Assembly: GCF_002102355.1 (NCBI RefSeq)
Contig: NZ_LQPT01000019.1
Location: 248,001 to 312,000 of the forward strand
Length of the DNA: 64,000 nucleotides
Source: Mycobacterium sherrisii
GTDB taxonomy: Bacteria; Actinomycetota; Actinomycetes; Mycobacteriales; Mycobacteriaceae
Reading direction: 5' to 3'
Shown piece by piece: positions 4,802-63,707 of the stretch. Every line of letters begins with the position of its first letter. Position 1 is the first letter of the stretch. Under the pieces are notes generated by a model that saw nothing but the letters and a program-made list of their open reading frames with translations, was not told the origin of the DNA and did not search any database. Both the position numbers and the translations under genes were made by a program.

Positions 4802-4816
4802 GAGAATACTATTCTC
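4802..4816. promoter_or_regulatory. operator GAGAAT-ACT-ATTCTC
   Basis: Perfect 6-bp inverted repeat with a 3-bp spacer, 22 bases upstream of the amidohydrolase start. This is the reference copy of a motif that recurs in front of most catabolic units in the window. The shape fits a TetR-family operator; the regulator is inferred. Confidence 0.75.
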
Positions 4817-4870
4817 TTGCAGGTCGTCATCGCAACACGCCCCCGGGGGGCGGTGCCGCACGACGCTGGG

Positions 4871-5302
4871 TCAGCAGGTGACGATGATCTTGAAGGGCGC
4901 CGACGCCGCTTCGTTTGGCTTGTCGGTCTTGAATCCGTTGGCGGTGCCCGTGACAGTGAATTTGTCGCCGGTCATGCTCGTGTCCGCGTGCTCGCCGTCG
5001 CCCCGGGCGTACATCCCATTGAACCCGCCGAGATTTCGGATGTGCACCGACTCCGTCGAGGCCGGTTGCGCTCCCATATCGACGATCAGGCTGGCCCCGG
5101 AAAAATTGCCGCCTATGTCGATCGTCCTCGTCCATTCCCGTTGCGTGCATTTCACGATGTGGAAGTTGGCATCGGTGCCGTTGACGGTGACCGATGCGGT
5201 GCCGGACACCGGGGTCGACGGTCGCGAGCTGCACGCGCCGAGTCCGGCCGCGGCGAGCACGGCGGCGGTTGCCGCGACGAATCGGGTCTGCACGTGGGGC
5301 AC
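4871..5302 (-). CDS. LpqH/19-kDa-antigen family lipoprotein
   Basis: A 143-residue lipoprotein. It has a short cationic N-terminus, a hydrophobic stretch and a lipobox LGAC (cysteine at about residue 24), followed by a Ser/Pro/Thr-rich linker. The mature part (VSGTASVTVNGTDANFHIVKC ... TVTGTANGF ... FKIIVTC) matches the mycobacterial 19-kDa antigen/LpqH/LppE family, with two conserved cysteines probably forming a disulfide. These proteins are exported and anchored in the cell envelope; LpqH relatives are TLR2 ligands, a family fact not tested here. It is divergent from the enoyl-CoA hydratase gene and shares the intergenic region holding the 5350-5368 repeat. Confidence 0.85.
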   Translation of the reverse strand: MPHVQTRFVAATAAVLAAAGLGACSSRPSTPVSGTASVTVNGTDANFHIVKCTQREWTRTIDIGGNFSGASLIVDMGAQPASTESVHIRNLGGFNGMYARGDGEHADTSMTGDKFTVTGTANGFKTDKPNEAASAPFKIIVTC

Positions 5303-5349
5303 CCCTAACCTTGTTCAACGGAACCCGCTCAGCCTGCAGCGATGATGCT

Positions 5350-5368
5350 ATTCTCGCCGCACGAGAAT
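5350..5368. promoter_or_regulatory. inverted repeat ATTCTC-N7-GAGAAT
   Basis: Both half-sites are perfect but in the opposite order to the other operators, with 7 bases between them. It lies in the divergent promoter region between the lipoprotein (start 5302) and enoyl-CoA hydratase (start 5404). The same arrangement recurs at 55063-55081. Probably a binding site for the same regulator. Confidence 0.5.
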
Positions 5369-5403
5369 GCCAATGTCGACCGCTCTTCGAGGAGCACACG
5401 CAC

Positions 5404-6150
5404 ATGCTGGATTTGGAGCTCGACAATGGGTTGGCGGTACTCACCATCGACCGTCCCCACGCGCGCAATGCCATCGCGCTCGACACCATGGACCAGCTGG
5501 AAAAGGCACTCGACGCAGCCTCCGGCGCCCGCACCCTGGTGATCAGGGGCGCTGGCGACAAGGCTTTCGTGTCGGGCGGTGACCTCAAGGAACTCAGCGC
5601 ACTGCGCACCGAAGAGGACGCCGCGGCGATGGCGAAGCGGATGCGGTCCATCTGTGACCAATTGGCGGACTTCCCCGCTCCGGTGATCGCCGCGCTGAAC
5701 GGCCACGCGTTTGGCGGTGGCGCCGAAGTGGCCGTGGCGGCCGACATCCGTGTTGCCGCAAGCGATGTCAAGATCGCGTTCAATCAGGTGACCCTGGAAA
5801 TCATGCCCGCGTGGGGCGGCGCCGAGCGGCTGGCCGCGCTGGTCGGAAGCAGTCGGGCACTGCTGTTGGCGGGCACTGGCAAGACGATCGACGCCGCGGA
5901 GGCCGAGCGCATCGGGTTGTTTGACGTGGTGTTGCCGCGCGCCTCATTCGAGGAAGGCTGGCGGTCGATCGCCACGTCGATGGCCGGTCAGCCGGCCGCC
6001 GAGATAAAACGAGTAATCAAAGGTGTTTCGCCGGACGAGGCGATAGCATCCTTTGCACGACTGTGGGTTGCCGACGCGCACTGGCAGGCCGCAGAGCGGG
6101 TCACGAACCGAAACGCCAAACCGCGCCCGGCGGCCGGAGGAGCGATATGA
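5404..6150 (+). CDS. enoyl-CoA hydratase/isomerase family protein
   Basis: A 248-residue crotonase-fold protein. The frame is open much further upstream, but ATG 5404 (MLDLELDNGLAVLTIDRP) matches the usual family start and follows GAGGAG at about 10 bases. Family landmarks: RNAIALDTMDQL, the first oxyanion-hole region KAFVSGGDLKEL, and the second, ALNGHAFGGGAEVAVAADIRVAA. Crotonase members hydrate or isomerise enoyl-CoA thioesters in beta-oxidation-type pathways. The stop overlaps the ATG of the next gene (ATGA). The upstream repeat at 5350-5368 suggests co-regulation with the other catabolic units. Hydratase versus isomerase or hydrolase cannot be decided. Confidence 0.9.
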   Translation: MLDLELDNGLAVLTIDRPHARNAIALDTMDQLEKALDAASGARTLVIRGAGDKAFVSGGDLKELSALRTEEDAAAMAKRMRSICDQLADFPAPVIAALNGHAFGGGAEVAVAADIRVAASDVKIAFNQVTLEIMPAWGGAERLAALVGSSRALLLAGTGKTIDAAEAERIGLFDVVLPRASFEEGWRSIATSMAGQPAAEIKRVIKGVSPDEAIASFARLWVADAHWQAAERVTNRNAKPRPAAGGAI

Positions 6151-26307: not shown

Positions 26308-26322
26308 GAAAATTTCATTCTC
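26308..26322. promoter_or_regulatory. operator GAAAAT-TTC-ATTCTC
   Basis: Matches the GAGAAT-N3-ATTCTC consensus with one mismatch. It lies 27 bases upstream of the small gene that heads the CoA-transferase unit (minus strand). Confidence 0.62.
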
Positions 26323-26499: not shown

Positions 26500-26521
26500 A
26501 TAATTGCGAAGGAGATTCTTT

Positions 26522-37195: not shown

Positions 37196-37196
37196 G

Positions 37197-49053: not shown

Positions 49054-49068
49054 GAGAATGAGCCTCTC
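49054..49068. promoter_or_regulatory. degenerate operator GAGAAT-GAG-CCTCTC
   Basis: Left half perfect, right half with two inner mismatches; extended outer palindrome TGAGA ... TCTCA. Located 25 bases upstream of the P450 start (minus strand). Confidence 0.5.
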
Positions 49069-49149
49069 AGAGATGAGCATTACATTTCCACACGGGCCTG
49101 TTGTCGTCAACGACAGGTGCCCCCGCACGGTCTAAGGACGAGCGCGTTG

Positions 49150-49665
49150 TTAGCCGGCCGGAACCAGATCGGCGGCCACCGACGGAAACGCGAGTAGACC
49201 ACTGCGGAAGCTCTCGGTGTGGCCGATGGAACACCCCGGCAGCGCGGCGGCCGCCAACGCCTTGCCCTTGAACACCTGCGCGGCCACGCTCAGCCGGTGT
49301 TGCACCAGGCCGACGGTGCCGTCCAGCTCCGCGGGCCAGGTCTCACCCCACAGGATGACCTCCGTGACGCCATGATCGAGCGCCTGCAGGACGCCCTGGC
49401 GCACCCGCGAGTCGCACCCCACCAGATCGGCCGCCGCCGCCAGAGCCTGCGGTCGGGGCCGGTCCTTTATCGATGCGAGCGCGTCTTCCAGATCGAGCGG
49501 CTGGGCGCCGATGATCTGTAGCGGCCGTAGGTCGGGGTGGTCCGCAAGGTCGGTGAGCAGCACCGTGACGTCCCAGCCGGCCATCGAGCGGTCGAACAGC
49601 CAGCCCCCGGCGAACCGCACCACGTCGAGCACGCTGGAGGCGACAACGTCCAGGCGATACCTCAT
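49150..49665 (-). CDS. hypothetical protein coupled to TetR
   Basis: A 171-residue protein starting MRYRLDVVASSVLDVVRFAGG. ATG 49665 overlaps the tetR stop (ATGA); the frame extends upstream only within tetR. It has an alpha/beta character with LTDLADHPDLRPLQIIGA and DHGVTEVILWGETWP. No family recognised; similar sequences tend to be ancillary, acetylglucosamine-/sugar-unrelated mycobacterial proteins. Function unknown. Confidence 0.68.
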   Translation of the reverse strand: MRYRLDVVASSVLDVVRFAGGWLFDRSMAGWDVTVLLTDLADHPDLRPLQIIGAQPLDLEDALASIKDRPRPQALAAAADLVGCDSRVRQGVLQALDHGVTEVILWGETWPAELDGTVGLVQHRLSVAAQVFKGKALAAAALPGCSIGHTESFRSGLLAFPSVAADLVPAG

Positions 49666-50291
49666 GTCGTGCTCGGGGATGCGCTCAGCGGCTGCTCCGA
49701 CGGCGCGAAGTCCCGCGCCAGCGTCTCGGCGTACTGTTTGAACACCTCGGTCAGCGGTATCGAAGGATCGAGCAACCATGTGGTTTCCATTCCGTGAACG
49801 AAGGCGAGTATTTCGACTGCCTTGATGGTGGGGTCTATCTCCGCCCGGTACCGACCCTCAACCTGGCCGTTGCGGATGAGCTCGGCGACGATGTCGACGG
49901 CGGCCTGATGACGCGCCAGCATGCGGTCGTGCAGCGGAGCGTCGGGCAGGATGTTTTCGACCAGCAACACCGTGAAGGTGCCGACCAGCTCCGGCGCCCG
50001 GTGAAATCGATCTGCGACGGCGGAGATCTGGGCGATGAGATCGCCGGCACGGTCGGCGTGCGTGTCGTCATCTTGATCACGGGCGTCCAGCACCGCGTGC
50101 AGCAGCTGCTCCTTGGACGCGAAGTGGTGCAGCAGCCCCGCGGGAGTCACTCCGGCTTCCCCGGCGATCTGCGCCAGCGTGGTGTTGCGCCAGCCATTGC
50201 GGGTCAGCAGCCGCTGCGCGACCGCGAGGATGCGCTGTTTGCGGTCCTCACCCTTGGCGAGCAGCGTGTCGTAACGGCGAGCGTCGGGCAC
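49662..50291 (-). CDS. TetR-family transcriptional regulator
   Basis: A 209-residue TetR protein, start GTG 50291. HTH region ILAVAQRLLTRNGWRNTTLA then GVTPAGLLHHFASKEQLLHAV. The C-terminal domain includes ILAFVHGMETTWLLDPSIPL, a typical effector-binding end. An inverted repeat AACCAACCTA ... TAGGTAGGTT (50321-50352) lies directly upstream, probably its own operator. Followed by the coupled hypothetical gene. Confidence 0.9.
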   Translation of the reverse strand: MPDARRYDTLLAKGEDRKQRILAVAQRLLTRNGWRNTTLAQIAGEAGVTPAGLLHHFASKEQLLHAVLDARDQDDDTHADRAGDLIAQISAVADRFHRAPELVGTFTVLLVENILPDAPLHDRMLARHQAAVDIVAELIRNGQVEGRYRAEIDPTIKAVEILAFVHGMETTWLLDPSIPLTEVFKQYAETLARDFAPSEQPLSASPSTT

Positions 50292-50320
50292 CGGGCTCCT
50301 TTGACCGATCGGCGGGGCTG

Positions 50321-50352
50321 AACCAACCTAGTGAACACACAGTAGGTAGGTT
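50321..50352. promoter_or_regulatory. inverted repeat AACCAACCTA-N12-TAGGTAGGTT
   Basis: Ten-base arms with one mismatch, 30 bases upstream of the tetR GTG (minus strand). It differs from all other repeats here and is a candidate autoregulatory operator. Confidence 0.6.
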
Positions 50353-50415
50353 TGGCCGATGTGACAAGGGTCTCAGCCGGACTCAAAGGAAGTTCTTCCC
50401 CGTGCCCCGTCGACG

Positions 50416-51564
50416 CTAGGCGACCAACTCGACCAGGGTGGCGTTGGCGGTGCCGCCGCCCTCACACATCGTCTGCAGGCCATAGCGGATCCCGTTGTCG
50501 CGCATGTGATGCACCAGCCGCGTCATCAGCACCGCGCCGGAGGCGCCCAGCGGATGGCCCAGCGCGATCGCCCCGCCCAGCGGGTTGACCCGCGCGGTAT
50601 CGGCACCGGTCTCGGCGATCCACGCCAGCGGCACCGGCGCGAAGGCCTCGTTGACCTCGAAGGCGCCGACCTCCGACAGCGGAACGCCCGCTTTCTTCAG
50701 CACCTTCTCGGTCGCCGGGATGGGGCCGGTGAGCATGAGCACGGGATCGGCGCCGGTGACGGCGCCGGCGCGGTACCGCACGATCGGCGTCAGGCCCAAC
50801 TCGACGGCCAGGTCCGAGGTCGTCACCAGCAATGCGGCCGCGCCGTCGGAGATCTGCGACGAATTGCCCGCGTGGATGACACCGTCTTCGGCGAACGCGG
50901 GCTTGAGCGTGCCGAGTTTCTCGACGGTGCTGCCCCGGCGCACGCCCTCGTCGGCGCTGACGACCGATTCGTCGTCGGTGATGACCGTGACCATCTGATC
51001 GGTGAAGGCGCCGCTGTCCTGGGCCGCGGCGGCCCGCTCGTGGGACTGCACGGAGAACTCGTCGAGCTGGGGCCGCGAGAAACCCCATTTTTTGGCGATC
51101 AGCTCCGCGGACAGCCCCTGGTTGAACGAGAAACCGTGGTAGCGGGCCAGGACCTTGGGGCCGTAAGGCATGCCGGTGGCCCGGGCCGCGCCCAGCGGCA
51201 CCCGGCTCATCACCTCGACACCGCCGGCCACCACGACGTCCTGCTGGCCCGACATCACCGCCTGCACCGCGAAGTCTAGGGCCTGCTGGCTGGAACCGCA
51301 GGCGCGGTTGATCGTGGTGCCGGGGATGCTCTCCGGCCAGCCGGCCGCCAGGACCGCGTACCGGCCGATGTTGCTGGACTGGTCGCCGACCTGGGACACG
51401 CAACCCCAGATCACATCGTCGACGATGTCGGGGCCCACCCCGGCTCGGTGCAGCACCTCGTTGAGGACGAGCGCGGACAGGTCCGCGGGATGCATGCCCG
51501 ACAACCCGCCGTTGCGCTTGCCGACCGGCGTGCGCACCGCCTCGACGATGACCGTCTCCCGCAT
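50416..51564 (-). CDS. acetyl-CoA acetyltransferase/3-ketoacyl-CoA thiolase
   Basis: A 382-residue thiolase. Nucleophilic Cys89 in NRACGSS, active-site His337 in GHPLGASG and Cys367 in CEGGG, so all catalytic residues are intact. It carries out thiolytic release of acetyl-CoA (or propionyl-CoA) in beta-oxidation-type steps. Starts 3 bases after the enoyl-CoA hydratase stop; operon order fadE - echA - fadA on the minus strand forms a complete beta-oxidation set except the hydroxyacyl dehydrogenase. Confidence 0.94.
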   Translation of the reverse strand: MRETVIVEAVRTPVGKRNGGLSGMHPADLSALVLNEVLHRAGVGPDIVDDVIWGCVSQVGDQSSNIGRYAVLAAGWPESIPGTTINRACGSSQQALDFAVQAVMSGQQDVVVAGGVEVMSRVPLGAARATGMPYGPKVLARYHGFSFNQGLSAELIAKKWGFSRPQLDEFSVQSHERAAAAQDSGAFTDQMVTVITDDESVVSADEGVRRGSTVEKLGTLKPAFAEDGVIHAGNSSQISDGAAALLVTTSDLAVELGLTPIVRYRAGAVTGADPVLMLTGPIPATEKVLKKAGVPLSEVGAFEVNEAFAPVPLAWIAETGADTARVNPLGGAIALGHPLGASGAVLMTRLVHHMRDNGIRYGLQTMCEGGGTANATLVELVA

Positions 51565-51567
51565 GTC

Positions 51568-52380
51568 CTACTCCGATTCCTCATCAGATTTCGATAACGC
51601 CCACCGCCCAGTAAACGACGGCTCCCGCCGCTGGCGGAACGCGGCATAGGCCGCGGCCGCGTCCGCCGTCGCGAAGTTGCCGATCTGCGCGCGCGCCTCG
51701 TTGGCCAGCGCGTCGCGCAGGGTGCGGTCGGCCCCCTCGTTGAGCAGCGCCTTGGTCTGTGCCAACGCGATCGGCGGGCCGGCGGCCAGCCGCGCGGCAA
51801 CTTCGTCGACGAAGCCGTCGATCGCTGCGGCCGACACCACCCAGGTAACCAAATTGAGCGCATGGGCTTCGGCCGCGTCGATGGTTTCGGCGAGCAATGC
51901 GAGTCGTTTAGCCTGTTGCAGCCCAACGATTTTCGGCAGCAACCAGGAACCGCCGAGGTCGATCGACAGGCCGCGTTTGGAAAAGATCTGGGAGAACGTC
52001 GAATCCGGCGTCGCGACGACCAGATCACAGCCCAGCGCCAGATTCCAGCCGGCGCCGACCGCGACACCGGTCACCTTGGCCACCGTCGGAACCGGGAGTT
52101 CATGCAACGCCAGCGCCACGTCGGTGAGGCGCTGCAGCTTGTGTTTCGGATGCACGTCGTCCGGGCTGGCGATGTCGGCGCCGGAACAGAAGGCTCCGCC
52201 GGCACCGGTGAGCACCAGCGCACGCACCCCGCGATCACGGCCGGCCTGCTGCAGCGCGTCGCGCAGTGCGATCCACAACTGGGGGTCGAGGGCGTTCTTG
52301 CGGTGCGGACGGTTGAGCGTCAGGGTGCGCACCCCGTCGTTGTCCCGCGACAGCAAGACGGGTTCTTCGGTGGACGTCAA
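51568..52380 (-). CDS. enoyl-CoA hydratase/isomerase family protein
   Basis: A 270-residue crotonase-fold protein: LNRPHRKNALDPQLW, GAFCSGADIASPDD (first oxyanion-hole region) and AVGAGWNLALGCDLVVATP (second). Start TTG 52380 overlaps the fadE TGA by 4 bases (TTGA), which decides the start despite a longer open frame. A glutamate/aspartate needed for hydration cannot be confirmed by eye. Middle gene of the fadE-echA-fadA operon. Confidence 0.91.
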   Translation of the reverse strand: MTSTEEPVLLSRDNDGVRTLTLNRPHRKNALDPQLWIALRDALQQAGRDRGVRALVLTGAGGAFCSGADIASPDDVHPKHKLQRLTDVALALHELPVPTVAKVTGVAVGAGWNLALGCDLVVATPDSTFSQIFSKRGLSIDLGGSWLLPKIVGLQQAKRLALLAETIDAAEAHALNLVTWVVSAAAIDGFVDEVAARLAAGPPIALAQTKALLNEGADRTLRDALANEARAQIGNFATADAAAAYAAFRQRREPSFTGRWALSKSDEESE

Positions 52381-53558
52381 TAGCTCCTCGGCAGTTTCAA
52401 CACGTTGGCGCCCAGGAAATTCAGGATCATCTCCTGGCTGACCGGTGCAATCTTCATCAGTCGCGCCTCGCGGAAGTAGCGGGTGATGTGGTATTCCTCC
52501 GCGTAGCCCATGCCACCGTGGGTCTGCAACGCCCGGTCCGCGGCGGCGAAGCCGGCGTCGGCGCACAGATATTTTGCGGTATTCGCTTCGCGCCCACAGG
52601 GTTTGCCATTGTCGTAAAGCCAGGTCGCTTTCCGCAACATCAGCTCGGCGGCGTCGAGCCGGGCCAGCGAGTCCGCCAGCGGGAACTGCAACCCCTGGTT
52701 CATGCCGATCGGCCGGCCGAACACCTCGCGCTCGTTTCCGTACTTGACGGCCTTTTCCAGGGCCACCCGGCCGATACCGAGCGCCTCGGCCGCGATCAGC
52801 ATCCGCTCCGGGTTCAAGCCGTCGAGGATGTACTGAAATCCCTTGCCCTCCTCGCCAACTCGGTCCTGAACCGGAACTTCGAGGTTGTCGATGAACAGCA
52901 CGTTGGAGCTGACGGCGTTGCGGCCCATCTTGCGGATTGGGCGAATGTCGACCCGGCTGCGGTCGAGATCGGTGAGGAACAGCGTCATTCCGTCAGTCTT
53001 CTTGGTGACCTCGTCGTAGCTCTTGGTACGGGTGAGTAGCAGGATTTTGTCGGATTCCATCGCCTTGGAGATCCACACCTTGCGGCCATTGACGACGTAG
53101 CGGTCGCCGTCGCGCTTGGCGAACGTGGTGATTCGCGACGTGTCGAGCCCGGCACCCGGTTCGGTCACGCCGAAGCACACGTGCACCTCGCCCCTCGCCA
53201 CCGGCGGCAGGGTGCGGGCCTTGAGTTCGTCGGAGCCGTGCACGACGACGGGCTGCATACCGAAGATCGAGAGATGGATGGCGCTGGCCGCGTTCATCGC
53301 CCCGCCGGACTTGGCCACCTCTTCGAGTAGCAGTGTGGCTTCGGTGATTCCGAGACCGTGGCCGCCGTACTCGGTCGGAATCGTCATGCCGAGCCAGCCG
53401 CCCTGAGCGATGGCGTTGTAGAACTCGGTCGGAAATTCGTGCGCCTGGTCCTTTTCCATCCAGTACTGGTCGTCGAATTTCCGTGCCAACTCCGCCACCG
53501 ACCGGCGGATCAGCTCCTGATCTTCGGTCAGCTCGAAGTTCATCCCATCGCCGGGCAC
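52377..53558 (-). CDS. acyl-CoA dehydrogenase (FadE-type)
   Basis: A 393-residue ACAD of the classical single-subunit type: FGVTEPGAGLDTSR, QGG/EYGGHGLGI, VWISKAMESDKI, and the C-terminal LQTHGGMGYAEEYHITRYFREARLMKI. It differs from the VQLTF-type FadE enzymes elsewhere in the window. GTG 53558 has AGGAGATC 8 bases upstream; ATG 53543 is alternative. Leads the fadE-echA-fadA operon. Confidence 0.93.
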   Translation of the reverse strand: MPGDGMNFELTEDQELIRRSVAELARKFDDQYWMEKDQAHEFPTEFYNAIAQGGWLGMTIPTEYGGHGLGITEATLLLEEVAKSGGAMNAASAIHLSIFGMQPVVVHGSDELKARTLPPVARGEVHVCFGVTEPGAGLDTSRITTFAKRDGDRYVVNGRKVWISKAMESDKILLLTRTKSYDEVTKKTDGMTLFLTDLDRSRVDIRPIRKMGRNAVSSNVLFIDNLEVPVQDRVGEEGKGFQYILDGLNPERMLIAAEALGIGRVALEKAVKYGNEREVFGRPIGMNQGLQFPLADSLARLDAAELMLRKATWLYDNGKPCGREANTAKYLCADAGFAAADRALQTHGGMGYAEEYHITRYFREARLMKIAPVSQEMILNFLGANVLKLPRSY

Positions 53559-53678
53559 TGCCGGATCTCCTGTTCATTGCCGCGCGGCGCGATCGCCGTG
53601 CTGGTCGTCAATAGGTCGAATGGCGACCCTGAGTGCAATCTCGACACAGCGCGACACCCAGGCCCGACACGTTGGCGG

Positions 53679-54977
53679 TCAGTCTTTGTTGCCGGTAAGG
53701 GCTTTCGCGTTGGCCGCGAAATCCGCGAAGGACGAGCCGCCTCGGCTGTCCTTGTCGTGGCCCTTGGCCTTGATGGACACGTCGTGTCCCTCGGCGGCCT
53801 TGCGCAGCGCCCCGACGGTGGCCTGCTCGCGCGGGATGTGCGTGAACGGGTCGAACGAGTACCAACGCATCGCGTTCTCGTGGGTCATCTTGTTGATCTC
53901 GTCATCGGGAACATTGTTGCGGGACAACACATCCCATAGTTCTTCGGGGGCGCCTGGCCACATCGAGTCGCTGTGCGGGTAGTCGGCCTCCCAACAGATG
54001 TTGTCGATGCCGATCATGTTGCGCAGCGCCACGCCGACCTTGTCGCTGATGAAGCAGGTCAGGAAGTGGTCGCGGAAAACCTCGCTGGGCAGCTTGCCCT
54101 TGAAGTCCTGGTGCGTCCAGGCGGAGTGCATCTCGAAGGTGCGGTCGGCGCGCTCGAGGAAGTAGGGAATCCACCCGGTTCCGCCTTCGGAGAGCGCAAT
54201 CTTGAGGTCCGGGTATTCCTTGATGGGCCGCGACCAGAGCAGATCCGCGGCCGCCTGCACGATGTTCATCGGTTGCAGGGTGATCATCACGTCCATCGGC
54301 GCGTCCGGCGCGGTGATCGCCAGCCGCCCCGAGGAACCGATGTGCACGTTCATGACGGTGTCGGTGTCGCACAGAGCCCTCCACAGCGGGTTCCAGTATT
54401 CGTCGTGAAAACTGGGGTAGCCCATCGCGGCGGGATTCTCGGTGAAGGTCAGCGCGTGGACGCCTTTTTTCGAAACCCGGCGCACCTCGGCCGCGCACGC
54501 TTCGGCGTCCCAAATCACCGGGATCGCCATCGGGATGAACCGGGCCGGGTAGGCGCCGCACCATTCGTCGATGTGCCAGTCGTTGTAGGCCTGCACCAGC
54601 GCGATCGAGAAGTCGTTGTCGTCGGTGGCGAACAGCCGACCCGCGAAGCCCGGGAACGACGGAAAACAGATGGAGGCCAGGATGCCGCCGGCGTTCATGT
54701 CCTTGACGCGCTCGTCGACGTTGTAGCAACCCGGCCGGATCTCGTCGAGCCCGGTCGGTTCGATGCCGTACTCCTCCTTGGGCCGGCCGGCGACGGCGTT
54801 CAGCGCCACGTTCGGGATGACGGTGTCGCGGAACTTCCACATGTCCGAGCCGTCGTCGTTGTGGATCAGCCGCGGCGCGTCGTCTTGATACTTCTTCGGC
54901 AGGTGGTTCTTGAACATGTCGGGCGGCTCGACAGTGTGGTCGTCGACGCTGATCAGCATCATGTCTTCTTTGTTCAT
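53679..54977 (-). CDS. amidohydrolase family 2 metal-dependent hydrolase
   Basis: A 432-residue TIM-barrel enzyme. N-terminal metal motif ISVDDHTVEPP, barrel histidine in VMNVHIGSSG, and the catalytic aspartate in CWEADYPHSDSMWPG. Longer than the other amidohydrolases by a C-terminal tail of about 70 residues (KDSRGGSSFADFAANAKAL). Start ATG 54977 follows GGAGAGGG. The promoter region carries the CTTCTC-N7-GAGAAT repeat. Probably a decarboxylase or hydrolase on a ring-cleavage intermediate. Confidence 0.91.
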   Translation of the reverse strand: MNKEDMMLISVDDHTVEPPDMFKNHLPKKYQDDAPRLIHNDDGSDMWKFRDTVIPNVALNAVAGRPKEEYGIEPTGLDEIRPGCYNVDERVKDMNAGGILASICFPSFPGFAGRLFATDDNDFSIALVQAYNDWHIDEWCGAYPARFIPMAIPVIWDAEACAAEVRRVSKKGVHALTFTENPAAMGYPSFHDEYWNPLWRALCDTDTVMNVHIGSSGRLAITAPDAPMDVMITLQPMNIVQAAADLLWSRPIKEYPDLKIALSEGGTGWIPYFLERADRTFEMHSAWTHQDFKGKLPSEVFRDHFLTCFISDKVGVALRNMIGIDNICWEADYPHSDSMWPGAPEELWDVLSRNNVPDDEINKMTHENAMRWYSFDPFTHIPREQATVGALRKAAEGHDVSIKAKGHDKDSRGGSSFADFAANAKALTGNKD

Positions 54978-55062
54978 GAGCTTCCCTCTCCATCGGATCC
55001 ACGAGCAGTCTGCTCCCGGGGCGTTCGGCTGCCGTGCGCACCCCGCTACCTCTGAAAACTAT

Positions 55063-55081
55063 CTTCTCGCCAAGTGAGAAT
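55063..55081. promoter_or_regulatory. inverted repeat CTTCTC-N7-GAGAAT
   Basis: Same inverted order and 7-base spacer as at 5350-5368 (one mismatch). It lies 86 bases upstream of the amidohydrolase start at 54977 (minus strand). Confidence 0.45.
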
Positions 55082-55357: not shown

Positions 55358-55372
55358 GAGAATACGATTCTC
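55358..55372. promoter_or_regulatory. operator GAGAAT-ACG-ATTCTC
   Basis: Perfect copy, 22 bases before the start of the seven-gene operon at 55395. Confidence 0.75.
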
Positions 55373-55394: not shown

Positions 55395-55943
55395 ATGCGC
55401 TTGCGGCCGCTGCCCGCGGACCAGTGGGACGAGGCTACCCGGCGGGCACTGTCGTCGATGCGGGGCGCGGATACCAACAACGCGCTCAGCACCCTTGCAC
55501 ACCACCCCGCGCTGGCGAAGGCGTTCCTCCGCTTCAACGTGCATCTGCTCGCCTCGTCCACGCTGCCGCCACGCATCCGGGAATTGGCGATCCTGCGGGT
55601 GGCACATCGTCGGCAGTGCGCCTACGAGTGGTCCCACCACGTCCGGATGGCCAAGGACGAGGGCATCACCGACGACCAGATCACCGCCGTCCAGCGTGCT
55701 ACCGGCGCCGACGACGGTGTCCTCGACGCGTTTGATGCCACGGTGATCACCGGCGTCGATGAACTCGAAGAGAACTCGCGAATATCCGACCCGACCTGGG
55801 CCGTGCTCGGCGAGCGTCTCAACGACCAGCAACGGATGGACTTCGTGTTCACGGTCGGCTGCTACGCGCTACTGGCTATGGCTTTCAACACTTTCGGCAT
55901 CCAGCTCGAGCACCCCGACCCAGCCGCCACCCACGTCGAGTAA
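55395..55943 (+). CDS. carboxymuconolactone decarboxylase family protein
   Basis: A 182-residue CMD-family protein. Conserved block RELAILRVAHRRQCAYEWSHHVRMAKDEGI contains the Cys/Glu/His pattern of the family (CAYEWSHH). Start ATG 55395 is chosen since it is the first start after the operator; ACATT/GAGGACATT provides a weak ribosome site. First gene of an operon with a Rieske oxygenase. May act on a lactone or be a peroxidase-like helper. Confidence 0.88.
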   Translation: MRLRPLPADQWDEATRRALSSMRGADTNNALSTLAHHPALAKAFLRFNVHLLASSTLPPRIRELAILRVAHRRQCAYEWSHHVRMAKDEGITDDQITAVQRATGADDGVLDAFDATVITGVDELEENSRISDPTWAVLGERLNDQQRMDFVFTVGCYALLAMAFNTFGIQLEHPDPAATHVE

Positions 55944-55967
55944 GAGTCAACAGAGGAGCAAAGAACG

Positions 55968-57257
55968 TTGCCGCACTTCCCGAAGCCAGCCGTCGGCAGC
56001 TGGACAGAGAACTACCCCGAATTAGGCACGGCGCCGGTTGATTACACCGACTCGATCGACCCGGCGTTCTTCGAGGCCGAACGCGACGCGGTGTTCAGGA
56101 AGACCTGGCTCAACGTCGGGCGGGTCAACCGGCTCCCCCGTGCCGGCAGCTATTTCACCAAAGAGCTACCGTCGGCGGGCAAGGGCACCTCGGTGATCAT
56201 CGTCAAGACCAAGGACGGGACCGTCAAGGCCTATCACAACGTGTGCCGGCATCGGGGAAACAAATTGGTGTGGAACGACTTTCCCAACGAGGAAACCGCC
56301 GGAACATGCCGGCAGTTCACCTGCAAATACCACGCCTGGCGCTACAGTCTCGACGGCGACCTGACCTTCGTCCAACAGGAAGACGAGTTCTTCGATCTCG
56401 ACAAGAGCAACTTCGGCCTGGCCCCGGTCCGTTGCGAGGTGTGGGAAGGCTTCATCTTCGTCAACCTCGACGACAACGCGGCACCGCTGACCGACTATCT
56501 GGGCCCGCTGGCCAAGAGCATCGAGGGCTACCCCTTTGGCGAGATGACGGAGACCTATTCCTATCGCGCGGAAGTGGGCAGTAACTGGAAGCTGTTCATC
56601 GACGCGTTCGTCGAGTTCTACCACGCGCCGATCCTGCATCAGGGGCAGTACACCAAGGAAGAAGCCGCCAAGATCCAGAAGTACGGCTACGAGGCGTTGC
56701 ACTACGAACTGGCCGGGCCGCACAGCCTGCAGTCGACATGGGGCGGTCAGGCTCCGCCTCCGGACATGTCCATGGTGAAACCGATGGACCAGGTGTTGCG
56801 CAGCGGCCTATTCGGTCCGTGGGACAAGCCCGAGATCATCGAGAATCTGGAACTGCCACCCGGGGTGAACGTGAAGCGGGCGCCGCAGTGGGGCATCGAC
56901 TCCTGGCTCTTCTTCCCGAACTTCATGCTGCTGATCTGGGAGCCGGGTTGGTACCTGACCTACCATTACTGGCCGACCGCGGTGGACAAGCACATCTTCG
57001 AGTGCACACTGTATTTCGTGCCGCCGCGCAACGCGCGCGAACGACTGGCGCAGGAACTCGCCGCGGTGACATTCAAGGAGTACGCGCTGCAGGACGCCAA
57101 TACCCTGGAAGCGACCCAGACCATGATCGGCACCCGGGCCGTCACCGAGTTCTTACTGTGCGACCAGGAAGTCTTGATCCGTCATCTGCACAAGACCACG
57201 GGCGACTACGTCGCGAATTGGCAGAAGGAGCACCAGCGCAATGTCGCTACCGTCTGA
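55968..57257 (+). CDS. Rieske non-heme iron oxygenase, large subunit
   Basis: A 429-residue ring-hydroxylating-type oxygenase. Rieske cluster: C93, H95 (NVCRHRGNK) and C119, H122 (CKYHAWRYSLDG). The mononuclear iron site lies in FIDAFVEFYHAPILH (H219, H224, D212 region). TTG 55968 follows AGAGGAGC. It inserts O2 into a hydrophobic acid or steroid-like substrate, or performs demethylation. Reductase and ferredoxin may be those at 37-40 kb; none is adjacent. Confidence 0.93.
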   Translation: MPHFPKPAVGSWTENYPELGTAPVDYTDSIDPAFFEAERDAVFRKTWLNVGRVNRLPRAGSYFTKELPSAGKGTSVIIVKTKDGTVKAYHNVCRHRGNKLVWNDFPNEETAGTCRQFTCKYHAWRYSLDGDLTFVQQEDEFFDLDKSNFGLAPVRCEVWEGFIFVNLDDNAAPLTDYLGPLAKSIEGYPFGEMTETYSYRAEVGSNWKLFIDAFVEFYHAPILHQGQYTKEEAAKIQKYGYEALHYELAGPHSLQSTWGGQAPPPDMSMVKPMDQVLRSGLFGPWDKPEIIENLELPPGVNVKRAPQWGIDSWLFFPNFMLLIWEPGWYLTYHYWPTAVDKHIFECTLYFVPPRNARERLAQELAAVTFKEYALQDANTLEATQTMIGTRAVTEFLLCDQEVLIRHLHKTTGDYVANWQKEHQRNVATV

Positions 57258-57564
57258 ATTCGCGGCCTTGGAGCCGTATTTGGCGTGGGATCTGGCCACC
57301 GAACCCGAGCGGTACGCCAAACGGCTCTCGTCGACGATGGCCGAGATGCAGGAGTTTTACAACGTCGCGTTCCCGCTGCTGAACGACGTGATCGCGTACT
57401 GCGACAAATTTCCCCTGGACGACCTGCCGGATGACGCGAAAACGTTGATGCACATGATGCAATCGTTGGTCATGGTGTCCTTTCCGATCGAGGCGTGGAA
57501 ACAACCGCGCGTTCCCGACAGCGGCGCGGCGTGGGTGGAATTGATCCGGGAACCGGTGATCTGA
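57241..57564 (+). CDS. hypothetical protein coupled to Rieske oxygenase
   Basis: A 107-residue mostly helical protein beginning MSLPSEFAALEPYLAWDLATE. ATG 57241 lies inside the end of the Rieske gene (17-base overlap). No domain recognised. Its place suggests a small subunit or assembly partner of the oxygenase, but it lacks the usual beta-subunit sequence. Confidence 0.72.
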   Translation: MSLPSEFAALEPYLAWDLATEPERYAKRLSSTMAEMQEFYNVAFPLLNDVIAYCDKFPLDDLPDDAKTLMHMMQSLVMVSFPIEAWKQPRVPDSGAAWVELIREPVI

Positions 57565-57566
57565 CC

Positions 57567-58820
57567 TTGTCCCGCGCTGCTCGCGCCGGCGACTCATCGC
57601 CGTTGACGCTCAAGGCCGCTGGACTGCTAGACGTCGACTCCGGTGAGATCGTCCGCCCCGGGTTGGTGACCATCGACGGCGACCGCATCGCCGGTATCGG
57701 CGGCGAGCCCGACGGCGAGCTCATCGACCTGGGCGACGCGATCCTGTTGCCGGGGCTGATGGACATGGAGGTCAACCTCCTGATGGGCGGGCGGGGTGAA
57801 AAGCCCGGCCTGTCTCAGGTGCAGGACGATCCTCCGACGCGGGTGCTGCGCGCCGTCGGCAACGCCCGACGGACGTTGCGCGCCGGGTTCACCACGGTGC
57901 GCAACCTCGGCTTGTTCGTCAAGACGGGCGGCTACCTGCTGGATGTCGCACTGGGCAAGGCAATCGACGCGGGTTGGATCGACGGGCCCCGGGTGGTTCC
58001 GGCCGGTCATGCCATCACGCCCACCGGCGGCCACCTGGACCCCACGATGTTCGCCGCGTTCGCACCGCATGCGCTGGAACTGACGGTCGAAGAAGGCATC
58101 GCCAACGGCATCGACGAGATCCGCAAGGCGGTCCGCTATCAGATCAAGCACGGCGCCGAGCTGATCAAGGTCTGTTGTTCGGGTGGCGTGATGTCGCTGA
58201 CGGGTCCGCCTGGCGCACAGCACTATTCGGATGAAGAGCTGCGCGCGATCGTCGACGAGGCGCATCGGCGGGGGCTGCGTGTCGCCGCGCACACGCACGG
58301 CGCGGAGGCGGTCCGGCACGCGGTCGACGCCGGAATCGACTGCATCGAGCACGGTTTCCTGGTCGACGACGATGCCATCGCGATGATGGTCGAGCACGGC
58401 ACCTTCCTGGTCAGCACCCGGCGCCTGGCCGAAGCGATGGACGTGTCGCATGCCCCGCCCGAGCTGCAGGCCAAGGCCGCCGAGATGTTCCCCAGATCGC
58501 GCACCTCGATCCTGGCGGCGTACGAGGCCGGGGTGAAGATCGCGCTCGGCACCGATGCTCCCGCGATACCGCACGGCCGCAACGCCGACGAGCTCGTCAC
58601 CCTGGTCGAATGGGGCCTTCCCCCGCTGGCGGTGCTGCGCGCCGCCACCAGCACCGCAGCCGAACTGATCAACTCGACCGATCGGGGACGCCTGGCACCG
58701 GGTCTTCTCGCCGACATCATCGCGGTGCCGGGAAACCCGTTGGAAGACATCACCGTTACGCGAAACGTCAGCTTTGTGATGAAAGGTGGCAAGGTCTATG
58801 TCGACACCCGATCGGTCTGA
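57567..58820 (+). CDS. amidohydrolase (imidazolonepropionase-like fold), HxH motif lost
   Basis: About 417 residues of an AMDH1-type metal hydrolase. Expected parts are present: LLPGLMDMEVNLLMGG, carboxylated-lysine region ELIKVCCSGGVMS, histidines in VAAHTHGAEAV and CIEHGFLV, and the aspartate in LGTDAP. But the N-terminal metal motif, normally DMHVHL, reads DMEVNL, so both histidines are replaced. Start TTG 57567 (2 bases after the preceding stop) is preferred to the longer frame. Overlaps the SnoaL-like gene. Confidence 0.86.
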   Translation: MSRAARAGDSSPLTLKAAGLLDVDSGEIVRPGLVTIDGDRIAGIGGEPDGELIDLGDAILLPGLMDMEVNLLMGGRGEKPGLSQVQDDPPTRVLRAVGNARRTLRAGFTTVRNLGLFVKTGGYLLDVALGKAIDAGWIDGPRVVPAGHAITPTGGHLDPTMFAAFAPHALELTVEEGIANGIDEIRKAVRYQIKHGAELIKVCCSGGVMSLTGPPGAQHYSDEELRAIVDEAHRRGLRVAAHTHGAEAVRHAVDAGIDCIEHGFLVDDDAIAMMVEHGTFLVSTRRLAEAMDVSHAPPELQAKAAEMFPRSRTSILAAYEAGVKIALGTDAPAIPHGRNADELVTLVEWGLPPLAVLRAATSTAAELINSTDRGRLAPGLLADIIAVPGNPLEDITVTRNVSFVMKGGKVYVDTRSV

Positions 58821-59247
58821 GAGCGGCCGCACGCGCACCGACGATTTGGTCGAGATTCAGCAGCTGCTCGCCCGCTACGCGGTCACCATCACCCAGGAAG
58901 ATATCGACGGTCTGATCGGTGTCTTCACCCCGGACGGCACCTACAGCGCGTTCGGCTCCACCTACCACCTTGACCGGTTCCCGGAATTGGTGGCCGCCGC
59001 GCCGAAAGGCTTGTTCCTCACCGGAACCGCCTTGATCGAAACCCTCGACGGCGACACGGCCAGCGGTACCCAGCCGCTGTGCTTCATCGACCACGCCACG
59101 CACGACATGCGGATCGGTTACTACCGCGACACCTACTCCCGCACGTCCCAGGGTTGGCGGCTGAAAACCCGTGCCATGACCTTCATTCGGCGCAGTGGCG
59201 TGCACGACTCCGGACGTCCACACGCCGTCGGCCGTCCGCAGCCGTGA
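58798..59247 (+). CDS. SnoaL-like (NTF2-fold) protein
   Basis: A 149-residue protein of the SnoaL-like/nuclear transport factor 2 fold, with EIQQLLARYAVTITQEDIDGL and a C-terminal beta sheet MRIGYYRDTYSRTSQGWRLKTRAM. Family members are often isomerases, cyclases or oxygenase helpers. ATG 58798 lies inside the end of the amidohydrolase gene (23-base overlap). The operon position suggests processing of the oxygenase product. Confidence 0.82.
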   Translation: MSTPDRSESGRTRTDDLVEIQQLLARYAVTITQEDIDGLIGVFTPDGTYSAFGSTYHLDRFPELVAAAPKGLFLTGTALIETLDGDTASGTQPLCFIDHATHDMRIGYYRDTYSRTSQGWRLKTRAMTFIRRSGVHDSGRPHAVGRPQP

Positions 59248-60359
59248 GGGTCGACGAGTTCCGGGCGGGTTTACGCGCGTGGCTCGACGAACACGACCTG
59301 ACGCCCGGGGCGGACCACACGCTGGAAGGCCAGATGCGCCAATTCCGGCGGGTCAGCCGCGCGCTCTACGACGCCGATTGGATGCGCTACGGCTGGCCGG
59401 AAGAAGTCGGCGGCCTGGGTGGGCCCGCGGTGCTGCGCGCCATCGTCGGCGAGGAGGTCGTTGGCCGCCGACTGGCCGAGCCCGGCCCGTATTCGATGCT
59501 CGAGGTGCTCACTCCCACGATGATCGATTATGCCCCACCAGAACTCGCCGCGGAGATGGTGCCGCGCCTGCTGCGCGGTGAAGAGCAATGGTGTCAAGGG
59601 TTTTCCGAGCCGGGCGCCGGCAGCGACCTGGCGTCGTTGACGACCCGGGCGGTCCGGGACGGCGACCACTGGATCGTCAACGGGCAGAAGGTCTGGACCA
59701 GCTTCGCGCAGTTCTCCACCCGGTGCATCCTGCTCACCCGCACCGGGCCGGCCCACCTAAACCATGACGGCATCACCGCGTTCTTCGTCGACCTCGACAC
59801 CCCGGGCATCACCATCCGGCCGCTGCGCACGATGCACGGCGTCGACGAGTTCTGCGAGGTCTATTACGACGACGTGGTGGTCCCGTCGAACCGGATGCTC
59901 GGCCGGCCGGGCGACGGCTGGAGGCTGGCGATGGACCTGCTTCCCTTTGAGCGGTCCACCTGCTTCTGGCAGCGCATCGCCTATCTGTACTCCCGATTCG
60001 ATGCGCTCATCGCCGAGGTTGCCGACGGCCCTCGGCACGGTGGACACGACGAATTCGAATTAGGTGCAACGTATCTCGCGCTGCACACGCTGCGCTGCCG
60101 CTCCCGCGCCACCCAGCATCGGCTCGGCGGCGGCGCCCGCCTGGGCCCGGACACCTCGATCGATAAGGTACTGCTGGCCGCGGCCGAACAGCGGCTCTAC
60201 GACACCGTCCGCGACGTGCTGCCCGGCGTCTTAGAACTCGACGACACACCGTGGCGTTCGGAATATCTCTATTCGCGCGCGTCGACCCTTTACGGGGGCA
60301 CGGCGGAGATTCAGCGCAACATCATCGCCCGTCGGCTTCTCGATCTCGGGAAGGAATGA
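59244..60359 (+). CDS. acyl-CoA dehydrogenase (FadE-type, first of pair)
   Basis: A 371-residue ACAD. Motifs EEVGGLGGPAVLRAIVGEEV, GFSEPGAGSDLASL, QKVWTSFAQFSTRCILL and the C-terminal LYGGTAEIQRNIIARRLLDLG. GTG 59244 overlaps the SnoaL-like stop (GTGA); the longer frame is a shadow. Coupled to a shorter ACAD protein, so probably a heteromeric dehydrogenase like the pair at 31-33 kb. Confidence 0.91.
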   Translation: MRVDEFRAGLRAWLDEHDLTPGADHTLEGQMRQFRRVSRALYDADWMRYGWPEEVGGLGGPAVLRAIVGEEVVGRRLAEPGPYSMLEVLTPTMIDYAPPELAAEMVPRLLRGEEQWCQGFSEPGAGSDLASLTTRAVRDGDHWIVNGQKVWTSFAQFSTRCILLTRTGPAHLNHDGITAFFVDLDTPGITIRPLRTMHGVDEFCEVYYDDVVVPSNRMLGRPGDGWRLAMDLLPFERSTCFWQRIAYLYSRFDALIAEVADGPRHGGHDEFELGATYLALHTLRCRSRATQHRLGGGARLGPDTSIDKVLLAAAEQRLYDTVRDVLPGVLELDDTPWRSEYLYSRASTLYGGTAEIQRNIIARRLLDLGKE

Positions 60360-61180
60360 GCATGGACCTGCCCTCAGACCCCGGGGAACTGCAGCTGCTG
60401 ACCGAGTCGCTAGGCACCGCAATGGGGGCGGCCTCCGGCGCCCGGCTCGACGCGGCGCTGACCGACCTCGGCTGGCGTGACATGCTGGACGAAATCCCGG
60501 AACTTGCCATCCCCCTGGTGTTTCGGCTGCTCGGCGAGACCGGTGCGCATGCGCCGGTCCTCAACGACGTGGTGCTGCGCGCGGCCGGCAAGCCGGTCGG
60601 CGGTATCACTGCGCTGCCGTTCTCGGGAAATTCCTGGGTGCGCTGGCGTCGTGACGACACACCCGGTTCGGCAATCGATGAAAGTCTGCCGATACATCCT
60701 GTGGCCGAAGGTGATTCGGTCTTTCAAGCTGGCCTGGACCTCGGGCGGCAGGCGCTGGGCTGGTGGTTGGTCGGGGCGAGCCGGGCCATGTTGACGCTGG
60801 CTCGTCAGCATGCCCTGGACCGAGTCCAGTTCGGTCGCCACATCAGCTCGTTTCAGGCGATCCGTCATCGACTGGCCGAGACTCTCGTTGCGATCGAGGG
60901 CGCCGTGGCGACCCTGCAGGCCGCCGCCGCGCAACCCGAGGATCCCGAGTTGGCCAGCCTCCTTGCCAAGGCGGCGGCGGGGCAAGCGGCGCAGACCGCG
61001 GCCCGGCACTGCCAACAGGTGCTCGGCGGTATCGGTTTTACCGCCGAGCACCCACTGCACCGTCACATCAAACGCTCGCTGGTATTGGACAGCCTCCTCG
61101 GCAGCGCGCGAGAACTCACCGGACAAGCCGGAGCGGCGTTGCGGGTCAAGGGCTTCGCGCCGCGGCTGCTGCAGCTGTAG
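60356..61180 (+). CDS. acyl-CoA dehydrogenase-like short subunit (FadE-type)
   Basis: A 274-residue ACAD-related protein, much shorter than usual. The C-terminal helical part is clear: RVQFGRHISSFQAIRHRLAE, KAAAGQAAQTAARHCQQVLG and GIGFTAEHPLHRHIKRS. The N-terminal half is reduced. ATG 60356 overlaps the preceding stop (ATGA). It is most likely the second, possibly non-catalytic subunit of a FadE heterotetramer. Last gene of the operon. Confidence 0.86.
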   Translation: MSMDLPSDPGELQLLTESLGTAMGAASGARLDAALTDLGWRDMLDEIPELAIPLVFRLLGETGAHAPVLNDVVLRAAGKPVGGITALPFSGNSWVRWRRDDTPGSAIDESLPIHPVAEGDSVFQAGLDLGRQALGWWLVGASRAMLTLARQHALDRVQFGRHISSFQAIRHRLAETLVAIEGAVATLQAAAAQPEDPELASLLAKAAAGQAAQTAARHCQQVLGGIGFTAEHPLHRHIKRSLVLDSLLGSARELTGQAGAALRVKGFAPRLLQL

Positions 61181-62728: not shown

Positions 62729-62827
62729 GGCACTCCCCTGAAGTTTGCGGGCACTCGTTCGGTAGATCCGGGTTTTCGCCCACGGTGCGATTCACTCTTG
62801 CGATTCCGCTTCTATACACGCGTTCAG

Positions 62828-62842
62828 GAGAATAGTATTCTC
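62828..62842. promoter_or_regulatory. operator GAGAAT-AGT-ATTCTC
   Basis: Perfect copy in the divergent promoter region between fadE (start 62728) and tetR (start about 62878), consistent with autoregulation by that TetR. Confidence 0.75.
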
Positions 62843-62877
62843 ATGGCAAGAAAGTTACAATCTCCGACACATGGTCC

Positions 62878-63621
62878 GTGAGGGGGTCGAGCGCAGCGAT
62901 GTCACGGCGTTCTCCGGTAGAGTCCAACCATGTTCTCCCCTCGCGGCAACCGTCCGAGCCTTCCGTGACCAACCCGAGCGGAGAGCCGGCCTGGAAGCAG
63001 CGCGCCGTCGAGCGATCCATCAAAACCGCGAAACTGCGTGCCGCGCAACGCGTTCAGCGTTTCCTCGATGCGGCTCAAGCCATCATCATCGAAAAGGGCA
63101 GCACCGATTTTACCGTCCAGGAGGTGGTGGACCGCTCGCGCCAGTCGCTACGGAGCTTCTACCTGCAGTTTGACGGCAAGCACGAGCTGCTCCTCGCGCT
63201 GTTCGAAGATGCGTTGAGCCGATCGGCCGATCAGATCCGCGCCGCGACCGAAAGCCACTCCGATCCCCTGGAGCGGTTGAAAGTGGCGGTCGAGCTGTTA
63301 TACGAGGCTTCGCGACCCGACCCCGCCGCCAAGCGACCCCTGTTCACCGACTTCGCCCCTCGGCTGCTGGTGACCCATCCGGCCGAGGTGAAGGTCGCGC
63401 ATGCGCCGCTGCTCACGCTGCTGACCGAGTTGATGGAAGCCGCCAGCGAGGCGGGTGAATTGCGCGCCGGACTCAATCCGCGGCGCATCGCCGCGATGAC
63501 AATGCAAACGGTCATGTTCATCGCGCAGTCCAGCGGCGGCAGCGATGACGCGACGATCCATCCGATCACCGCCGACGAGGTGTGGGACTTCTGCTCAGCC
63601 GGATTCGTCGGCCAGCGCTAA
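62878..63621 (+). CDS. TetR-family regulator, candidate master regulator of the GAGAAT sites
   Basis: Up to 247 residues; the start is uncertain (GTG 62878 or GTG 62965). DNA-binding region QRFLDAAQAIIIEKGSTDFT then VQEVVDRSRQSLRSFYLQF, followed by HELLLALFEDAL, a TetR/KstR-like domain widespread next to mycobacterial fadE genes. The C-domain is helical (LLYEASRPDPAAKRPLFTDF). A perfect GAGAAT operator lies 36-50 bases before the GTG. Likely a repressor released by an acyl-CoA or pathway metabolite. No ligand evidence. Confidence 0.88.
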   Translation: MRGSSAAMSRRSPVESNHVLPSRQPSEPSVTNPSGEPAWKQRAVERSIKTAKLRAAQRVQRFLDAAQAIIIEKGSTDFTVQEVVDRSRQSLRSFYLQFDGKHELLLALFEDALSRSADQIRAATESHSDPLERLKVAVELLYEASRPDPAAKRPLFTDFAPRLLVTHPAEVKVAHAPLLTLLTELMEAASEAGELRAGLNPRRIAAMTMQTVMFIAQSSGGSDDATIHPITADEVWDFCSAGFVGQR

Positions 63622-63692
63622 CCCCCACAACCCTTCTCCCTTGCTCCGGTCCTTTTCGGCGCCGAGCAGATAGCGCACGCGAGTTGCCTTGT

Positions 63693-63707
63693 GAGAATGT
63701 GATTCTC
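63693..63707. promoter_or_regulatory. operator GAGAAT-GTG-ATTCTC
   Basis: Perfect copy between the tetR stop and the SDR start, about 215 bases upstream of ATG 63923. The flanking TAATATTTAGAAC is AT-rich and promoter-like. Confidence 0.7.

Follow-up and report, generated by a model that had tools for sequence, protein, structure and literature searches.

KstR is an autoregulated TetR-family repressor of cholesterol catabolism in mycobacteria and rhodococci with a motif that partly overlaps the -10 element, as described in the accessible part of the source (PMC1995591), and Mce3R controls the mce3 operon through two binding sites per operator, according to the available part of its description (PMC11667970). 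The accessible part of Balhana 2015 (PMC4482099) gives 30 regulators under Rv numbers with motifs drawn as logos, which permit no letter comparison. The stretch analysed here, referred to as the window, comprises 64,000 nucleotides of Mycobacterium sherrisii (contig NZ_LQPT01000019.1, C19 in our numbering; C19:248001-312000), in which a first-pass annotation had noticed the 15-bp palindrome GAGAAT-N3-ATTCTC ahead of most catabolic units and had proposed the product of the TetR-family gene starting at 62878 (TetR62878) as the sole regulator. Its observation that the repeat differs from the KstR and KstR2 operators agrees with the letters printed in the parts of the two papers available, TnnAACnnGTTnnA for KstR (PMC1995591) and AnCAAGnnCTTGnT for KstR2 (PMC3068626). 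From the comparative analysis below we consider it highly probable that TetR62878 acts as an autoregulated repressor of one catabolic regulon through this palindrome.

Rescanning the window bore out all ten site coordinates of the first-pass annotation. The perfect palindrome occurs 5 times in the 64-kb window and 8 times in the whole genome (5.56 Mb, 128 contigs), in comparison to 0.055 copies expected genome-wide from base composition, and 7 of the 8 genomic sites lie on contig C19 between 252.8 and 359.4 kb, a span of 107 kb. The reversed pattern, used as a control, gave no match in the whole genome with up to one mismatch. None of the 59 other palindromes with half-sites of this composition occurred in the window, nor did the arms at any different spacing from 0 to 11 bases. 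Copies with one mismatch were found in the window at 26308 and 34737, and the annotated sites at 26485, 41431 and 49054 have two. With up to three mismatches allowed, the window held 26 matches in comparison to 11.8 +/- 3.5 in shuffled sequence, and none of 100 shuffles got to 26. The intergenic share was 5/5 for perfect, 2/2 for one-mismatch, 5/6 for two-mismatch and 5/13 for three-mismatch copies, based on a hand-made gene list in which 9,563 of the 64,000 bases are intergenic and several open reading frames (ORFs) with no Pfam match are counted as coding. Perfect sites are concentrated in this stretch and intergenic, the reverse of the even or mostly coding distribution that had been named as evidence against a local regulon. 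The predicted operators lie about 22 to 60 bp ahead of most starts, near promoter-like elements, as measured on the sequence; the earlier statement that they mostly stand 20 to 60 bases before a start holds for these, but not for the site at 26308, about 170 bp from the CoA-transferase start, or the site at 34737, about 168 bp from the amidohydrolase start.

Conservation was followed by aligning the upstream regions of the window with those in 80-kb stretches of five genomes of the same genus. The cluster is syntenic in the five relatives, with the left-hand genes (2153-11901) absent from the stretches of G110 and G045 and single genes missing elsewhere. The regulator gene and the predicted operators are as follows.

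62878..63621, plus strand, TetR-family regulator and putative repressor (TetR62878), 247 amino acids, with a long N-terminal arm before the helix-turn-helix
4802..4816, perfect predicted operator before amidohydrolase-FadD (4779-2153, minus strand); perfect in four of four aligned genomes
5341..5355, degenerate predicted operator before an enoyl-CoA-hydratase-like ORF (start about 5401, plus strand, named by eye); largely kept in three of three aligned genomes
5363..5377, second copy of the pair, 22 bp from the 5341 copy
26308..26322, one-mismatch predicted operator before a CoA-transferase (26135-24930, minus strand); one or two mismatches in six of six genomes
26485..26499, degenerate predicted operator GAGAGTAGGGTTCTC before a short-chain dehydrogenase/reductase (SDR) and P450 unit (26560-28909, plus strand); GAGAGT and TTCTC retained in six of six genomes
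26506..26520, second copy of the pair, 21 bp from the 26485 copy
33247..33261, perfect predicted operator before FadE-FadE (33216-31047, minus strand); perfect in six of six genomes
33268..33282, second copy of the pair, 21 bp from the 33247 copy; minus strand GAGATTATTACTTTC, largely retained in six of six genomes
34737..34751, one-mismatch predicted operator GAGAATGGTATTATC before an amidohydrolase pair and Rieske ferredoxin (34919-38492, plus strand); identical in four of six genomes, altered in two
41431..41445, degenerate predicted operator GATAACGTAATTCTC before the DUF35-thiolase operon (41499-47242, plus strand); identical in five of six genomes, not retained in G064
49054..49068, degenerate predicted operator before a P450 (47745-49028, minus strand); variant kept in relatives, with a like pair ahead of the orthologue in genome G310
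49075..49089, second copy of the pair, 21 bp from the 49054 copy
55054..55068, degenerate predicted operator with three mismatches before amidohydrolase-FadE-enoyl-CoA hydratase (ECH)-thiolase-TetR49662 (54977-49662, minus strand); GAGAAGMTAGTTTTC in six of six genomes
55358..55372, perfect predicted operator before CMD-Rieske oxygenase-amidohydrolase-FadE-FadE (55395-61180, plus strand); perfect in six of six aligned genomes, spacer variable
62828..62842, perfect predicted operator between the divergent FadE 61553 (minus strand) and TetR62878
62850..62864, second, degenerate predicted operator GAAAGTTACAATCTC, 22 bp from the 62828 copy; includes a -10-like TACAAT
63693..63707, perfect predicted operator downstream of TetR62878 and before an SDR (start about 63765)

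Across the syntenic relatives the arms of the palindrome persist while the N3 spacer drifts, as at 55358, where the six genomes carry ACG, ATG, CCA, CTG, CTG and AGG. Most of the weaker copies in the first-pass annotation are kept, including both halves of the 26485 site in all six genomes, and the 63693 site has no mismatch in three genomes, one in two and two in one. The pair at 5341 and 5363, which the annotation had not listed, is largely retained in the three genomes aligned there, and the 55054 operator, likewise absent from its list, has a half-site partner at about 55076 recognized by eye. In the window, five pairs of sites with up to three mismatches lie within 100 bp of each other, and every one is spaced by 21 or 22 bp, a pairing that the first-pass annotation had not noted; over the six genomes this spacing holds for 17 of 20 such pairs, unevenly spread at 5, 1, 5, 2, 3 and 1 per genome. 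A scan of the 59 permuted palindromes, limited to the window, yielded no pair at this spacing. In genome G310, which belongs to another genus, 6 of 11 pairs are spaced by 21 or 22 bp, one of them ahead of the orthologue of P450 47745, and genome G177, of a further genus, has one such pair among three, located where its fetched stretch ends. Since 21 to 22 bp correspond to two helical turns, two dimers could share one face of the DNA.

The TetR62878 protein was recognized by the Pfam TetR_N model (PF00440; E 2e-07, 31.1 bits in comparison to a cut-off of 24), and its residues 36-117 are almost wholly invariant in 26 orthologues. No NCBIfam model matched it at E<=1e-10, and a plasmid search for it gave no match. 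Its AlphaFold2 model, of low confidence (mean pLDDT 69.8), is nearly all helical, and the best PDB matches of the model include TetR-family proteins at E of about 2e-5 to 1e-4. Among the weak matches are FadR proteins solved with acyl-CoA, with EthR2 and YvdT equally good; the FadR matches would fit release by a CoA thioester but prove little.

The placement of the site ahead of its presumed regulator is nearly constant. Among the best 80 Mycobacterium loci of the 381 confirmed in the search, 79 have a perfect site no more than 110 bp upstream of the TetR62878 orthologue, the single exception being M. tilburgii. Within the 79, the second box at 62850..62864 is more than 95% conserved in 14 of its 15 columns, and a copy of the 63693 type with at most one mismatch follows within 200 bp of the end of the TetR gene in 70, being perfect in 44. 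In M. tilburgii (L063, and apparently also G089:C43; assembly of 3.2 Mb) the TetR gene is kept and the upstream site is altered at several positions, a combination which looks like regulon decay.

The motif and the regulator also occur together across genomes. In a sample of 148 genomes of the genus, the perfect motif was found in 122 and a TetR62878 orthologue in 122 at E<=1e-80, a cut-off set after the results were seen, with three more genomes giving weak matches only. Both were present in 120 genomes, the motif alone in 2, the orthologue alone in 2 and neither in 24 (Fisher 3.7e-23). Relatives of TetR62878 were found in eight other genera, and in the family sample outside the genus, where a genome was counted as regulator-positive at E<=1e-30, at least one perfect site was present in 41 of 44 positive genomes and at least two in 34 of 44, in comparison to at least two in none of the 186 negative genomes. 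In the six genera holding both kinds, at least two sites were found in 31 of 41 positive and 0 of 53 negative genomes, a contrast matched by 0 of 200,000 within-genus permutations. Five regulator-positive genomes have no perfect site; four of them (G056, G241, G344 and G351) carry a site with one or two mismatches within about 110 bp of the TetR gene, and the fifth, G089, a more altered site only. The named loci and the genome sets overlap. The proposal of TetR62878 as the only regulator is therefore supported comparatively, by the upstream site and by co-occurrence, and this evidence points to TetR62878 as the best-supported candidate regulator of the sites.

Several observations weigh against such a simple picture. 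Exactly one perfect site is present in 16 of the 186 regulator-negative genomes outside the genus, and two genomes within it, G044 and G070, carry the motif without an orthologue. Co-occurrence is partly expected for a motif and a regulator sharing one cluster, and both Fisher's test and the within-genus permutation ignore phylogeny. A second close copy of the TetR is found in 7 of the 148 genus genomes (G016, G022, G069, G073, G086, G101 and G130) and also in G374, with 76 to 81% identity to the window protein in the two-copy genomes, and G310 carries three copies of 66 to 69% identity; given the extra copies in the seven genus genomes and G310, paralogues could share the sites. Neither the Mce operon (15032-24648) nor the P450 at 7385 is preceded by an operator copy in the window, and 3 of the 10 perfect sites in the G310 stretch (73909, 131041 and 133052 of the joined stretch) and 1 of 5 in that of G177 could not be assigned to any relative of a window unit. 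As a -10-like hexamer is often present in the second box, the promoter may account for some of the conservation of that box, and for several weak sites it is conservation alone that argues for a function.

That TetR62878 binds the sites as an activator or mere modulator, with the main control left to unit-specific regulators such as the other TetRs, would fit the four TetR genes of the window (62878, 49662, 6500 and 11290) and its Mce operon without a site; we nevertheless regard this as improbable, because repressors of this family typically have an autoregulatory position and sites close to promoter-like elements, as KstR does (PMC1995591). Regulation of the sites by TetR49662, TetR6500 or TetR11290 instead appears slightly more improbable still, although TetR49662 belongs to a marked operon and 112 of the 148 genus genomes have it, and one perfect site in G310 stands between an Mce operon and a TetR6500-like gene, a neighbour that makes this possibility slightly likelier. 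In the window, no perfect site stands immediately before any of these three genes. TetR49662 had no match (E<=1e-40) in six TetR62878-positive genomes with 4 to 8 sites (G041, G057, G076, G091, G103 and G139), of which all but G076 are in at least 230 contigs, nor in four genomes with one site; for G091, G103 and G139 the negative is taken from their absence among the matches listed. TetR6500 and TetR11290 were not found (E<=1e-30) in the 80-kb stretches fetched from G110 and G045, which keep sites, the search being confined to these stretches.

An assignment of the cluster to the cholesterol regulon, with its sites as variant KstR operators, is very unlikely. The KstR palindrome TAGAAC-N2-GTTCTA has AGAA in common with the GAGAAT half-site and KstR is among the weak PDB matches of TetR62878 (E 0.0016), but its spacer is 2 instead of 3, two of six half-site letters differ, and of the 7 perfect KstR-type sites in the genome none is in the window. 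Only perfect matches are informative in that count, since the KstR pattern with one mismatch gave 11 matches in comparison to 10 for its reversed control. The reversed pattern, ATCTTG-N2-CAAGAT, is itself a palindrome, and its 10 genomic matches with up to one mismatch stand against 2.6 expected, an excess that perhaps reflects another operator or codon use. Finally, we give next to no credence to non-regulatory repeats or terminators: the palindromes are indeed short inverted repeats between genes, yet their arms are retained with free spacers, they keep fixed places ahead of starts, there is no T-run, and the sites depend on the presence of one TetR.

With TetR62878 thus favoured as an autoregulated repressor, the extent of its putative regulon can be followed outside the window. 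The earlier suggestion that this 60-kb stretch would be one catabolic system stands as far as about a dozen marked units are concerned, but the regulon extends beyond it to at least three more units. On C19 a perfect site at 354058, 42 kb beyond the window, precedes an alpha/beta hydrolase, and another at 359337, 47 kb beyond, separates FadD-FadE-FadE-ECH from a 2Fe-2S ferredoxin, a small family-less ORF and a PF04909 amidohydrolase. At C77:86722 the perfect site is placed where an APH-family ORF begins, and an SDR and a FadE come after this ORF. The one-mismatch sites outside the window, 3 of the genome's 5, are near chance level (2.6 expected genome-wide with up to one mismatch); two fall inside coding ORFs (L059 and L060) and L061 was not resolved. 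As the perfect sites outside precede genes and the one-mismatch ones are largely coding, a fully intact palindrome marks the units well. The regulon is mostly, not wholly, local.

In G310, 10 perfect sites were found in the 172 kb fetched and 14 in the genome. Seven of the 10 stand before relatives of FadD6852-FadE-FadE-ECH, TetR62878, the Rieske oxygenase, amidohydrolase 3589-FadD2153, amidohydrolase L057:8994 and P450_7385, or between the TetR6500-like gene and an Mce operon starting with two MlaE permeases (L220:14931-18063). With a site directly before the Mce operon, uptake seems to be operator-controlled in that genus, unlike in the window. G177 has 5 sites in the 100 kb fetched and 6 in the genome; all but one of the 5 precede FadD6852-FadE-FadE-ECH, TetR62878, the unit of the Rieske oxygenase and a thiolase with 36% identity. 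The core common to the window, G310 and G177 consists of a CoA ligase, paired FadEs, a hydratase and the Rieske oxygenase.

The annotation had described nearly all the units as catabolic, and the window indeed holds about a dozen marked units encoding mostly catabolic enzymes. The following gene groups are relevant here.

2153..4779, minus strand, FadD3-family acyl-CoA ligase and PF04909 amidohydrolase
15032-24648, minus strand, Mce operon (MlaE and MlaD/Mce4_CUP1 domains)
31047..33216, minus strand, paired (heteromeric-type) acyl-CoA dehydrogenases
34919..37610, plus strand, two PF04909 proteins and a Rieske ferredoxin in an AibH1-AibH2-AibG-like arrangement
41499..43154, plus strand, ChsH2-type DUF35 domain fused to a lipid-transfer-protein-like thiolase fold
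49662..54977, minus strand, likely operon of amidohydrolase, FadE, enoyl-CoA hydratase, thiolase and second TetR
55395..61180, plus strand, CMD protein, Rieske oxygenase alpha, family-less ORF 57241-57564, Amidohydro_1 and two FadE

Operator copies lie ahead of the units of the PF04909 genes 3589, 53679 and L057:8994. No NCBIfam model at E<=1e-30 was found for the AibH-like 36050 or amidohydrolase 53679, and no Pfam match for the minus-strand ORFs 1533-2156, 5988-7355, 9571-11100, 10401-11186, 38497-40407 and 60410-61237 or the plus-strand ORF 57241-57564. The nearest solved structure of FadE 61553 is Tcur3483, which we take to have a steroid role, and that of the 41499 fusion is the lipid-transfer-protein/ChsH2 complex 6ok1. 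The DUF35 and thiolase parts are fused in the 41499-43154 protein and are separate chains in 6ok1. P450 47745 is nearest to CYP150A6 (E 9e-151) and P450 27491 to P450cin, while the nearest structures of amidohydrolases 34919 and 36050 are 8sm6-8sm9 and 6m1w/8ful; the last two are presumably AibH1H2, the structure tables labelling them Amidohydrolase only. Amidohydrolase 3589 is nearest to 4dzi, with PtmU3, to which we would ascribe a diterpenoid role, more distant. These nearest structures, along with the proposal in the accessible part of PMC10401708 that AibH2-like proteins with an adjacent Rieske protein are Mn/Fe monooxygenases, suggest oxidation and beta-oxidation, and the pathway may be one for catabolism of a polycyclic sterol- or terpenoid-like compound.

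Under the proposed mechanism, TetR62878 dimers would bind the 15-bp palindrome at about a dozen window promoters and at least three outside, with a second dimer probably occupying the weaker copy two helical turns away at several promoters. Lying near the core promoter or just ahead of the start codon, they would block RNA polymerase until a pathway intermediate, probably a CoA thioester, released the repressor and switched the units on together. With their CoA ligases, paired FadEs, enoyl-CoA hydratases, thiolases, the ChsH2/thiolase fusion, P450s, AibH-like amidohydrolase-fold enzymes and the Rieske oxygenase, the units may together constitute a single oxidative pathway of the beta-oxidation type, whose substrate would be large and hydrophobic and perhaps sterol- or terpenoid-like.

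A broader reading, which we put forward only tentatively and think rather doubtful as a whole, is that of a third large catabolic regulon of Mycobacteriaceae beside those of KstR and KstR2, in which an undescribed TetR would recognize a KstR-like half-site with one more spacer base, as two side-by-side dimers at many promoters, and would control a pathway without described substrate. Several amidohydrolase-fold Mn/Fe-type monooxygenases, P450s and the Rieske oxygenase would there oxidize a polycyclic sterol- or terpenoid-like nutrient, with Mce-type uptake in some genera. No description of the motif or regulon was found among the papers listed in searches of the openly licensed literature, which is weak evidence of novelty as subscription papers lie mostly outside it. 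Present in 120 of the 148 genomes of the genus and, judged by its TetR, in eight other genera, a regulon comparable in kind to that of KstR would point to an important but unnamed nutrient. With one regulator and one 15-bp operator, the releasing ligand, once found, would give the substrate class. The operator also groups P450s (one close to CYP150A6), AibH-like enzymes and the ChsH2/thiolase fusion into one candidate pathway, and with its help this gene set can be recognized in any of the genomes concerned.

Identity of the sites with the operators of KstR, KstR2, BkaR or Mce3R was rejected, as the operators printed in the accessible parts of the sources do not fit. PMC8228715 shows a palindrome near R. 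ruber kshA in its Figure 2; the letters GAGAAT in the available part of the text are primer tails with restriction sites.

The arrangement resembles the KstR regulon, as far as its description is accessible (PMC1995591), in having an autoregulated TetR, a short palindrome near the -10 element, many lipid or steroid units and conservation in related actinomycetes. It differs from TnnAACnnGTTnnA with its N2 spacer in that the sites here have an N3 spacer with an AAT/ATT core and perfect KstR-type copies lie elsewhere in the genome. The KstR and TetR62878 proteins are only weakly related in sequence. KstR2 is likewise a TetR with a palindromic motif at divergent promoters, but in the part of PMC3068626 available its motif is AnCAAGnnCTTGnT, different in letters, and its regulon 15 genes at three promoters. 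Similar to BkaR, as accessible in PMC3920632, there are two operator copies in the regulator's own promoter and autoregulation, while the 16-bp core of BkaR, GTTA(N)T(N4)A(N)TAAC, differs in letters and serves branched-chain keto-acid genes. Mce3R, according to the available part of PMC11667970, is a double-TetR polypeptide with non-palindromic sites 53 bp apart. TetR62878 has one TetR_N stretch in 247 amino acids and palindromic sites, and the Mce operon of the window carries no site. The targets of Mce3R include paired FadE, as do the marked units here, and its two binding sites per operator recall the tandem copies. The unit at 34919-37610, with two PF04909 proteins followed by a Rieske ferredoxin, is like the AibH1H2-AibG monooxygenase (Mn/Fe), a likeness known here from sequence.

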